From Candidatus Hydrogenedentota bacterium (GTDB lineage: Bacteria; Hydrogenedentota; Hydrogenedentia; Hydrogenedentales; JAEUWI01), in assembly GCA_019637335.1 (NCBI GenBank), contig JAHBVV010000008.1, positions 62,001 to 126,000 of the forward strand: DNA of 64,000 nucleotides, in the 5' to 3' direction. The notes under the pieces are model-generated. The model searched no databases, was not told the DNA's origin, and worked only from the letters and a program-made list of their open reading frames with translations. Both the position numbers and the translations under genes were made by a program. Numbering within the stretch: the stretch's first letter is position 1; the number at the start of each line of letters is the position of its first letter. Positions 848 to 7,220 of this stretch are shown here, piece by piece.

Positions 848-3244
<2,397 letters not shown>

Positions 3245-3524: not shown

Positions 3525-4427
3525 ATGGCGGGCAGAAACGCGATACTTAGCGCGTACGAACTGTCGGCGTTGACGCGCTTGTTTTCATCGTCCGTAATTC
3601 AGGAGTTAGCCCGAAAAGGCCGTTCGCCATTGTTGCGACGGCTGTCCTCCGCCTCTCGACTCGCGCTGCGCTGTTCTACCTCCGCACGCGTCCGTGATCT
3701 ATTTGAGACTGCATTCACCATACTTAATTCCGCGGGCCGACGCGACGAGTACATTTACCGTTCCGCGCTCACTCACAAGGTGCTTTTGGGTAAGCATTCA
3801 CTTCGAACCGCCGCGATGCTAAGCGAGTTCCGGGTCGGCAATTGCAGGGCCGATGCCGTCATTCTTAACGGCTCTTCCGCTGCCTATGAAATCAAATCCG
3901 AACGGGACTCACTATTTCGTCTTGCACAACAGGTTGAACAGTACCGGCGGGTTTTTGCATCGGTAAATGTAATTGCCAGCGATTCACATATTGGTGCAAT
4001 TTCCACGGTGGCGCCAATGGATGTTGGTATCTTGCGCCTGAACGCTCGTTATCAGATATCGACGGAACGCGAGGCGCATGTCCGGCCTGATGGAATATGT
4101 CCAGTTGCTGTCTTTGATTCGCTGCGCTCCGACGAAGCGATACTGATTCTGAGCGGTCTTGGAATTGAGGCGCCCAACCTCCCCAATACTCAGCTCCGAG
4201 GCGCTATGCGAGCGCTCTTCAGCGATCTTGAGCCTGTCGCCGTGCACCAGCAAATGGTGGAAACGCTAAAGGTTACGCGTGACCTTACTCCGTTGTGCGA
4301 GCTTGTTGAGCGGCTGCCGAAATCTCTGCACGCCGCGATACTTTCCACCCCGATCCGGAAGGCTGACCACAAACGGTTGACGGACGCTGTGCACACACCG
4401 TTGAGCGAGGCGGAGAAATGGGTATAG
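3525..4427 (+). CDS. sce7726-family protein, predicted PD-(D/E)XK nuclease
   Basis: Protein of 300 residues resembling the sce7726 family, found beside sce7725/beta-family proteins. The core carries E101, D110 and E122-I-K124 (RADAVILN then AAYEIKSERD), followed by Gln137 in a helix, which is the layout of a PD-(D/E)XK nuclease fold. I choose ATG 3525 because GGGAGA precedes it at 3514-3519; the frame opens upstream at 3447 without recognisable sequence. It is the first gene of a three-gene set with overlapping ends. Base composition is lower in GC than the flanks (29 of 60 at 3961-4020 against 43 of 60 at 2041-2100), which suggests transfer. Nuclease activity is inferred. Confidence 0.78.
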   Translation: MAGRNAILSAYELSALTRLFSSSVIQELARKGRSPLLRRLSSASRLALRCSTSARVRDLFETAFTILNSAGRRDEYIYRSALTHKVLLGKHSLRTAAMLSEFRVGNCRADAVILNGSSAAYEIKSERDSLFRLAQQVEQYRRVFASVNVIASDSHIGAISTVAPMDVGILRLNARYQISTEREAHVRPDGICPVAVFDSLRSDEAILILSGLGIEAPNLPNTQLRGAMRALFSDLEPVAVHQQMVETLKVTRDLTPLCELVERLPKSLHAAILSTPIRKADHKRLTDAVHTPLSEAEKWV

Positions 4428-4429
4428 CG

Positions 4430-5386
4430 ATGTATCGACCTTACTTTCGCGGCAAACAATTCGAACTGATTGCGATACGTGAGCGGGCCGGGTTATTTGC
4501 CGAATGCGGATTTGTGCCAATTATAGAGCCAGTCAAGGAATCCATCGCCGGACTCACGAAGACTCTGGACGCAATTCGCGACGCGGAAGGGCGAGCGATC
4601 CTCATCGTGAACCCGTACCACGGTGACCATAGCGGCGGCGATGCAATTTCCACAATACTACGTGAGGTTTATAACAAGGACGATTTCGTATCCGCTGGCG
4701 TTCTATTGCGAAGCGAGATGGCGCTGAATGAGGCGCTTGCCGTCTGCAAATCTCATGCAGCACATGATTTGACCATCATACACGCGGGATTCACAGATCC
4801 GAAGGGGTTGGCTGCCCATCTCTCCGCAGAAAACGTGGCGGTATCAGAGCACATTTTCATCGACAAGTTCACGGGCCATCTCTACCGAAGGCATTTTACT
4901 GGCCCGACGCGAATTCTCGTCGGAGATGGATTCGAGCGCCGGCGCAACGCGGACTATCCCGAAACCGAGGAATTTTCCGAACTCCACGTGACATACTCCG
5001 AACTGAAAATGGATGGTTTTGGCGACTTTTTGATCGTTGGTGATGATTACTCGGAGACGGGCGGGCCAGCGTATGCGGTAGCGATTCACTTGACCTTCAT
5101 CGACGATGAGAAAGATGACGTGATGTACGTCTACCATTTCGTCTCGGATACGAACGACACGCCGACCGATCCCGCGGGAAAGTTTGCCCAGGCACTTCGA
5201 AAGCTCGTCTTGAAGCTCGATTCAGGGGCCTCGAAGCTCTATGACACCACAGCAATCGAGGAATTCAGGGCATTGCATGACAAGGGACATTTTCCGGGCC
5301 TTGGCTACGTGAAGAAACTCTCGATGATTCATCATTTAGAGACTTTGGCGACTTTTCTGAGGCTCAAGCCTGAAGGACGGGAATGA
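4430..5386 (+). CDS. sce7725/beta-family protein
   Basis: About 318 residues, beginning MYRPYFRGKQFELIAIRE, which resembles the N-terminus of the beta (sce7725) family that neighbours sce7726 proteins. No signal peptide or membrane segment is visible. The biochemical role of the family is not known to me. ATG 4430 matches the family start; an in-frame ATG at 4418 overlaps the upstream stop and sits only 2 bp from GAGGCGGAG, so either start is possible. The downstream gene begins in an ATGA overlap at 5383. Tight coupling to a nuclease-like and a RES gene suggests a joint complex. Confidence 0.75.
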   Translation: MYRPYFRGKQFELIAIRERAGLFAECGFVPIIEPVKESIAGLTKTLDAIRDAEGRAILIVNPYHGDHSGGDAISTILREVYNKDDFVSAGVLLRSEMALNEALAVCKSHAAHDLTIIHAGFTDPKGLAAHLSAENVAVSEHIFIDKFTGHLYRRHFTGPTRILVGDGFERRRNADYPETEEFSELHVTYSELKMDGFGDFLIVGDDYSETGGPAYAVAIHLTFIDDEKDDVMYVYHFVSDTNDTPTDPAGKFAQALRKLVLKLDSGASKLYDTTAIEEFRALHDKGHFPGLGYVKKLSMIHHLETLATFLRLKPEGRE

Positions 5387-6411
5387 CAATGCTCCCGAAG
5401 TGCTGCTGCCCGGAGTGCTTCGATGATCGGGGGCTTCGCGAAAAAATATTTCCGACTTTGAAACCTGAATTTGGCACATGCAGCTATTGTGGGTCCGTGA
5501 AAGTGCAGTTGGTCGAACCAGGCGCTCTCCGCAATCTATTCGAGATTCTGACGAATGTTTATGAGTCAGATGGAGAAGGCAAGACGCTGGTTGAGTGGAT
5601 GAAGGAAGACTGGCGGCTCTTTCCCGATGACCGCCTGGACGTAGCTCACGCGAAGGAGCTCCTGGCGGAAATATTGGACGATGGCGAGATTGTCCGGCGT
5701 TCGTTCAGTCCTTCATCGGCTTATCGGAGTGTGGGGCTGCTTCAGTGGGACGCGTTTCGCGACGAGCTGATGACCAGGAATCGCTGGTTTCTGGATGAGA
5801 CTCTGGACATTGATCGTCTCCGCGAACTGCTTAGTCACGTATTAATCCGTGGGCTCTCGGACAGGTGGTACCGTGCCCGAGTTTGTAAAGGTGGCGACGA
5901 TTTTCCGTTGAGCAAGATGGGCGCGCCGCCCAATCAGCTGGCCTCGCACGGGCGCGCGAATCCCGCCGGAATACCGTACCTCTACCTTGGCTCGGATGCG
6001 GTCACCGCCGTCGCGGAAGTGCGCCCTCACACGGGGGATAGAGTTTGTGTCGCGGAATTCGAAGTCCCAGGGGTGGTGGCCGTTGATCTTCGTGACCCCC
6101 GGAAATGTGTTTCGCCATTCTTCCTCGCAGGAGCGGACGAGATCGGCCAGCTGCGCGCAGACCTGCCCTTGTTGGAGCGGCTCGGCGCGGAGTTGACCCG
6201 ACCAGTACTGCCGGACAGCGCGGCAATCGATTACATTCCGAGTCAATACCTGTGTGAGTTCATCAAGAAGTGTGGTTTCGACGGTGTTGTTTACGGTAGC
6301 TCGGTAAGTGACGGTATCAATCTTGCCTTGTTTGATCCTGTCAGAGCCACTCCCAAGTCGTCGGAATACTACCACGTGACGAAGGTTGCCATAGAGACTG
6401 TCAGGGCATAG
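5383..6411 (+). CDS. Zn-ribbon / RES-domain protein (predicted NAD+-degrading)
   Basis: 342 residues. The N-terminus has CPEC (9-12) and CSYC (33-36), a four-cysteine zinc ribbon, then a helical segment resembling the HEPN-like N-terminal region of some RES proteins. A RES domain spans roughly 155-335: WYRARV supplies the Arg, YLYLGSDAVTAVAEVRP the Tyr and Glu, and VVYGSSVSDGINLALF the late Ser. RES domains degrade NAD+ in Xre-RES toxin-antitoxin systems, so abortive NAD+ depletion is a plausible role. No Xre antitoxin is adjacent; the two upstream genes may provide control instead. The ATGA overlap shows translational coupling. Confidence 0.8.
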   Translation: MTMLPKCCCPECFDDRGLREKIFPTLKPEFGTCSYCGSVKVQLVEPGALRNLFEILTNVYESDGEGKTLVEWMKEDWRLFPDDRLDVAHAKELLAEILDDGEIVRRSFSPSSAYRSVGLLQWDAFRDELMTRNRWFLDETLDIDRLRELLSHVLIRGLSDRWYRARVCKGGDDFPLSKMGAPPNQLASHGRANPAGIPYLYLGSDAVTAVAEVRPHTGDRVCVAEFEVPGVVAVDLRDPRKCVSPFFLAGADEIGQLRADLPLLERLGAELTRPVLPDSAAIDYIPSQYLCEFIKKCGFDGVVYGSSVSDGINLALFDPVRATPKSSEYYHVTKVAIETVRA

Positions 6412-6524: not shown

Positions 6525-7220
6525 ATGCAGCATGGGCCTTCTGAAGACGAACAGCGCCGTTTGCGGAAGCTCCGGGAACTTGGAATACTGGATACGTTTC
6601 CCGAAAAGGCGTACGACGATATCACGTTTCTTGCGGCGCAGATCGCGCAGACGCCGATGGCGCTAATTACGTTGCTGGACGCGGATCGGCAGTGGTTCAA
6701 GTCGAAGGTGGGTATCGATATTGACGAGACGCCCCGGGACCACGCGTTCTGCGCCCGGGCGATACTCAAGCCGCACGAGCTGATGGTGGTGCGGGACGCG
6801 TCGCGGGATCCGCGTTTTGCGGGTAATCCGTTTGTGACGGGCCCGCCTTCGATCCGGTTTTACGCGGGGGCGCCGTTGGTCTGCGACGATGGTTCGGCGC
6901 TGGGGACGCTTTGCGTGATCGATGTGAAGCCGCGCACACTGAGCGAGTTGCAGGAGACGGCGCTGCGTGTGCTGGCGCGGCAGGTGATGGCGCAGATCGA
7001 GCTTCGCGAGGCGCTGGCGCAGGTGAAGCGCCTGCGGGGGATGTTGCCGATTTGCACGAACTGCAAGAAGATCCGCGACGATTCCGGGTACTGGGAGCGC
7101 GTTGACACGTATGTGGCGCAGCACTCCGAGGCGGTGTTCAGCCACGGCATTTGCCCCGAGTGTATGGAATCGCTTTATCCGGAGGCATCCGAGGCGATGC
7201 ATCGGGGGGAGCGGCCCTGA
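6525..7220 (+). CDS. GAF-domain sensor protein with C-terminal Cys motif
   Basis: 231-residue soluble protein. Residues about 20-160 form a GAF domain of the type found in stand-alone sensors and at the front of signalling proteins (ILDTFPEKAYDDITFLAAQIA, DHAFCARAIL, APLVCDDGSALGTLCVID). The C-terminus carries LPICTNCKKIRDDSGYWE, a motif common at the ends of bacterial signalling proteins, with a further CPEC 25-30 residues later; the four cysteines may bind metal. There is no output domain, so it probably acts through a partner. Its stop codon is one base from the stop of the convergent histidine kinase gene, so the two transcripts must overlap. Confidence 0.8.
   Translation: MQHGPSEDEQRRLRKLRELGILDTFPEKAYDDITFLAAQIAQTPMALITLLDADRQWFKSKVGIDIDETPRDHAFCARAILKPHELMVVRDASRDPRFAGNPFVTGPPSIRFYAGAPLVCDDGSALGTLCVIDVKPRTLSELQETALRVLARQVMAQIELREALAQVKRLRGMLPICTNCKKIRDDSGYWERVDTYVAQHSEAVFSHGICPECMESLYPEASEAMHRGERP

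Follow-up and report, generated by a model that had tools for sequence, protein, structure and literature searches.

A mobile sce7726-sce7725-RES gene cassette as a candidate abortive-infection system related to gop-beta-cII of phage P4

RES proteins constitute a known family of toxins and are phosphorolytic enzymes of the ART superfamily. The original prediction made for the locus described here rested in part on RES proteins being able to degrade NAD+, and this activity has been reported for the RES toxin NatT, whose active site is listed as R23, R82, Y93, S184 and N193 (PMC11535050). The physiological role of these toxins has been called unresolved, and as of 2024 no RES toxin-antitoxin system had been implicated in immunity (PMC11535050). 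A 2022 review includes RES in its list of immune domains on the basis of computational evidence (PMC9503650), and the open-access literature that we searched yielded no test of a RES protein in the role of immune effector.

The closest described relative of the locus as a whole is gop-beta-cII, a set of genes in satellite phage P4 that protects against phages lambda and P1 (PMC9122126). Gop is toxic without Beta, which is reported to neutralize it, and the two have been described as a toxin-antitoxin pair (PMC9122126). A further point of comparison is provided by the TIR and SIR2 abortive systems, such as Thoeris and the short Argonaute-TIR/SIR2 systems. These would share with the present cassette its proposed outcome, the depletion of NAD+, but the cassette differs in having a RES enzyme of the ART superfamily as its proposed effector and in having unrelated sensor parts.

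The cassette is composed of three genes, referred to here as A, B and C, which encode an sce7726-family protein, an sce7725-family protein and a RES protein, respectively. The sce7725 and sce7726 families receive incidental mentions only in the open-access literature searched, one of them in connection with an IME of Pseudomonas aeruginosa (PMC9394441). We propose that the cassette is probably a mobile abortive-infection system directed against phages or other mobile elements, and a relative of gop-beta-cII that employs a different killer.

Gene layout and genomic setting in the window

The window is the whole stretch of DNA analyzed, 64,000 nucleotides of a contig from a Candidatus Hydrogenedentota bacterium. 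An operon of three genes had been described between katG and a GAF gene, and both the genes and their placement were borne out. All on the plus strand, gene A occupies positions 3525..4427 (300 aa), gene B 4430..5386 (322 aa when counted from the listed ORF start at 4418) and gene C 5383..6411 (342 aa). Outside the cassette, on the same strand, katG lies upstream (884..3244, with the annotated start inside this ORF) and the GAF-domain gene downstream (6525..7220; PF01590, 3.9e-15). The overlaps of 4-10 bp originally described between the genes are present in the ORFs as listed, but that of 10 bp between A and B is probably a start-codon artifact, since the aligned relatives of gene B all begin at an MYxPxxRGK motif that is equivalent to residue M5 of B (position 4430), from which no overlap is left. 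The start of gene C may also lie at 5389 instead of 5383.

Within the window, no xre-type gene adjoins the cassette, as had been stated from the outset, and neither does any gop-like gene. A sigma-70 promoter scan found no promoter, and the 64-kb window holds no tRNA gene. The cassette (3525-6411) has a GC content of 54.8% compared with 64.4% for the window, which is lower than that of every non-overlapping stretch of equal length in the window, and the GC3 of its genes is 0.58-0.63 against 0.78-0.88 in the neighbors; the claim of a lower GC than the flanks is thus upheld. Family searches of the organism's own 7.16-Mb genome found one copy each of the sce7726, sce7725 and RES families, all of them in the cassette.

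The cassette is flanked by housekeeping genes, and no defense gene adjoins it in the stretch examined. It sits between katG and the GAF gene at the place where the related genomes have katG2. One sister genome (G037) has the neighborhood LysR-katG-katG2-GAF with no cassette, and another (G035) carries the cassette at the opposite flank of the GAF gene. That two genomes of the genus carry the cassette in a katG-GAF neighborhood might suggest a non-immune stress or housekeeping operon, tied for instance to katG and oxidative stress. Such a katG-linked role was rejected because the insertion point differs between these two genomes while the third has the neighborhood free of the cassette, and we regard a housekeeping operon of any kind as very improbable given the sporadic distribution, the foreign GC content and the unrelated neighbors found elsewhere. 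The katG-GAF neighborhood itself is conserved in the genus (L133, L134), and the second katG-like gene that two sister genomes have between katG and the GAF gene is absent at this place in the window.

The three proteins and their probable link to phage P4

Gene A matches the sce7726 model NF033832 with an E value of 3.5e-47, and the same model matches P4 CII at 2.5e-44; by sequence, gene A is a member of the P4 CII family. The PADLOC 'cll' model also matches gene A, at 2.6e-18. The layout of E-D-E-x-K residues that had been read from the protein is indeed there, with E101, D110, E122 and K124 invariant across 72 relatives. In the AlphaFold2 model (pLDDT 96) the order of the core is alpha-beta-beta-beta-alpha-beta, and the ExK strand is found at 118-124. 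The core order together with the E/D...(D/E)xK residues marks the protein as a predicted PD-(D/E)xK nuclease. The fold search taken by itself is only suggestive of this, as Foldseek returned nothing below 1e-3 from the PDB, and the top folds, which include SfsA, XPF, EndoMS and tRNA-splicing endonucleases, were low-confidence matches with E values of 0.02 or worse. Searches of the sequences of solved structures with genes A, B and C and with P4 Beta gave no useful match.

Gene B matches the sce7725 model NF033831 at 1.9e-98. Structure prediction of protein B alone, which had been proposed as a check at the outset, gave a beta/alpha (TIM-like) barrel with a pLDDT of 93.9. Its Foldseek matches are TIM-barrel enzymes, and since these are generic we claim no enzyme function for the protein. 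The active sites of TIM barrels are usually located at the strand ends, and the invariant residues E37, N65, D203, H240 and S243 of gene B sit at, or just past, the strand ends of the model. This position makes it possible that the barrel binds a ligand. The best viral fold match of gene B was not P4 Beta but a protein of Gordonia phage Powerball. No Beta query reached this protein, and it is not counted here as a Beta protein.

P4 Beta belongs to PF14350, whereas gene B is placed in the separate family NF033831 and has no Pfam match at the cut-off, PF14350 included. When gene B was compared with a Beta profile, only the N-terminal 107-147 columns were aligned, with probabilities of 39-91% that varied with the alignments used (E 3e-4 to 1e-6); column-shuffled Beta profiles reached no more than 0.2%. 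The comparison of a single Beta sequence with gene B was not significant. Gene B therefore resembles Beta in its N-terminal part only, as a distant relative might. This link to P4, through the CII family and the apparent kinship with Beta, is a step beyond the original prediction, in which it was missed.

In several respects, the cassette mirrors gop-beta-cII: both have three genes, mobility, a placement in defense hotspots and a toxic or presumably toxic third partner, and gene A falls in the NCBIfam family of CII while gene B resembles the N-terminal part of Beta. However, the third gene of the cassette encodes a RES enzyme, whereas that of P4 encodes the 133-aa membrane protein Gop, and the cassette genes all lie on one strand, whereas cII of P4 is convergent. 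As the third gene is RES and there is no Gop, we file the cassette as a relative of gop-beta-cII and not as a member. Among other Beta loci that were sampled, a gene of the sce7726/CII family is convergent with beta in four of seven. The gene upstream of beta varies and may encode Gop, an HTH protein or an ImmA-type peptidase that is accompanied by a membrane protein, with the ImmA-type and HTH labels taken from a reading of the sequences. Prophages Rac-SA53 and Pmp11 provide further loci of this kind. A Beta-family gene followed by a convergent CII-family gene was often observed among L152, L153, L154 and L157, which are PF14350 loci, and L163 and L164. A gammaproteobacterial contig (L158:4596-8163) contains two tandem pairs of an ImmA-type peptidase gene and a Beta-family gene.

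The RES domain of gene C is found at residues 162-321 (PF08808, 1e-17), and there is in addition a weak match to HEPN_RES_NTD1. The four-Cys zinc ribbon and RES domain ascribed to the protein at the start were both recovered: cysteines C9, C12, C33 and C36, as well as R164, R166, R191, Y201, E212, S306 and N313, are invariant across 59 relatives. The spacing of R191-Y201-E212 is identical to that of the R-Y-E of ParT (6d0h), in a profile comparison of gene C with RES toxins that covers 48 columns with a probability of 60%, and S306 and N313 correspond by motif to the PS...N segment. The catalytic residues, the loss of which upon alignment would have spoken against the prediction, are consequently present and in line with those of the classical toxins.

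Gene C is thus like the toxins of the RES-Xre modules ParT-ParS, MbcT-MbcA and NatT-NatR in its active-site residues and R-Y-E spacing. It is unlike them in carrying a zinc ribbon and a helical domain at its N terminus and in being co-inherited with two other proteins, and the cassette, unlike the modules, is devoid of an Xre/COG5642 antitoxin. The combination of a zinc ribbon, an NTD and RES was noted in 2013 by Anantharaman et al. and is shared with the HEPN/RES-NTD1-RES proteins (PMC3710099). That work describes the fusion and predicts an RNase, in contrast to the account of gene C given here, and is not known to draw a link to sce7725 or sce7726. Zinc-ribbon RES proteins with the architecture of gene C also occur on plasmids without sce7725 and sce7726 (L010, L011, L012).

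Co-inheritance, mobility and defense-island context

One genome per species was scanned across 84,980 species, which gave 402 places that encode a relative of sce7725. The best 80 were retained, these being the ones closest to the query, so that the co-occurrence figures are limited to close relatives. In profile searches of these best 80 of 402 loci, gene A was adjacent in 79 and gene C in all 80, and the order and strand of the three genes was common to 79; the order sce7726/sce7725/RES, which was expected to recur elsewhere if the prediction held, does so. The 80 loci come from alpha-, beta- and gammaproteobacteria, actinobacteria, acidobacteria and Nitrospinae, and all three genes are also present in a record from a human-gut phage collection. 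Pairwise protein distances of A, B and C correlate with each other at 0.84-0.85 over 89 three-gene loci, compared with a permutation maximum of 0.23, and in close pairs dN is far below dS for each gene. By these comparisons the three-gene order is a real unit, and genes A, B and C are each under strong purifying selection. Among more distant sce7725 proteins, A-B pairs without RES are found in gammaproteobacterial prophage contigs (L106, L111-L115), and RES is therefore not obligatory for every member. Homologues of sce7725 are also seen on an Enterococcus plasmid and in a Listeria-phage record (L006:5306-6957, L013:5108-6957), where an unrelated upstream ORF of 229-295 aa replaces sce7726 and RES is absent.

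The cassette is found on rhizobial, Shinella and Moraxella plasmids, in a Salmonella ICE, where it adjoins an integrase and a caspase-like gene, and in the P. aeruginosa IME, which bears all three genes (PMC9394441). Among the complete genomes of E. coli, 18 out of 5,426 have a chromosomal copy that is 97% identical to the Salmonella cassette, and gene B is found in 3 of 68 genomes of the window's own phylum. On the plasmids, in the ICE and at the E. coli loci alike, no Xre antitoxin is annotated beside gene C. This distribution marks the cassette as mobile and accessory.

The island context in E. coli was inspected in 6 of the 18 carrier genomes, and all six cassettes lie on mobilizable integrase/relaxase islands. 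Near the cassette are a KwaB-like (Kiwa) gene in five of the six islands, one of which was confirmed at 6.6e-121, caspase-TIR-cyclase genes in two, and in one a retron III-A type RT accompanied by a gene that resembles a phosphoribosyltransferase. BREX and AbiE genes are close by in strain UTME-9, as is AbiE in UTME-14. In three Pseudomonas loci (L064, L066, L070) the cassette is adjoined on its downstream side by a retron type I-C RT (RT-Toprim). A PADLOC/Pfam scan of 148 neighbors yielded RT, integrase and Fic families, as a plain listing and not an enrichment. The E. coli islands L165, L166, L181 and L182 display a conserved integrase-relaxase backbone with a variable slot for defense cargo, which holds a KwaB-like gene, caspase/TIR/cyclase genes, an RT with a phosphoribosyltransferase, or the sce7726-sce7725-RES cassette. 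The anticipated presence in defense islands is hence observed, and the cassette has the genomic hallmarks of an anti-phage defense gene in that it is sporadic, mobile and lodged among such systems.

Carriage on plasmids, ICEs, mobilizable islands and the P. aeruginosa IME (PMC9394441) would equally suit an addiction or maintenance module, in which C would act as toxin and B, alone or together with A, as antitoxin, so as to stabilize plasmids and ICEs, phage defense being incidental or absent. The existence of toxins among RES proteins and the description of Gop and Beta as a toxin-antitoxin pair (PMC9122126) are in keeping with this. Nonetheless, we find it unlikely, as gene A is kept with invariant residues under purifying selection even though simple addiction has no need of it, as there is neither a small labile antitoxin nor an Xre regulator, and as the cassette is also chromosomal and close to defense systems.

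Strains UTME-9 and UTME-14 keep A and B intact but carry a frameshift in the RES gene, as would be expected of a costly effector. The same disruption, along with the RES-free A-B prophage loci and the invariant residues of gene A, could instead be taken to mean that A and B, as a targeted nuclease and its partner, make up the active defense unit and that RES is an added fail-safe, which fires only when A-B is inhibited or insufficient. This appears improbable in view of the presence of RES in all of the best 80 of 402 loci, with distances that track those of A and B, and of the finding that zinc-ribbon RES proteins built like gene C also occur without A-B.

Proposed mechanism and its wider meaning

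The joint travel of the three genes between distant bacteria, together with their known anti-phage neighbors in E. coli, makes a suicide-type phage defense the most likely function. The initial proposal of a nuclease or sensor, a regulator and an NAD+-depleting effector acting in abortive infection is still the best reading, with support that is genomic rather than functional in kind. We infer a specificity for phage, an inhibition of C by B, a role for A as sensor or nuclease, and a loss of NAD+. Gene A would sense or act on invading nucleic acid and, with or without B, trigger C; it may also itself cut DNA. By analogy with the action of Beta on Gop, the TIM-like barrel of B would keep C inactive or set the threshold for its release. 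Gene C would be the effector, and once released its RES domain would phosphorolyze NAD+ and thereby halt the infected cell.

A broader scheme, which we put forward tentatively and with somewhat less than even confidence, is that a CII-type nuclease and a Beta/sce7725 barrel form a general trigger for swappable killers that are unrelated to one another. These killers would be Gop in P4, the ImmA-type peptidase or HTH partners at other Beta loci, and RES here, with the RES form being an immune system that kills by phosphorolysis of NAD+ and the barrel possibly binding a regulatory ligand through its conserved residues at the strand ends.

RES toxins are widespread, and with this cassette a role for them in immunity becomes likely. 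Probable functions are also suggested for sce7725 and sce7726, two uncharacterized families found in many genomes, and the poorly understood gop-beta-cII of P4 would be a branch of a wider group of modular systems. The closely related copies in E. coli bring the cassette within reach of phage challenge in that organism.
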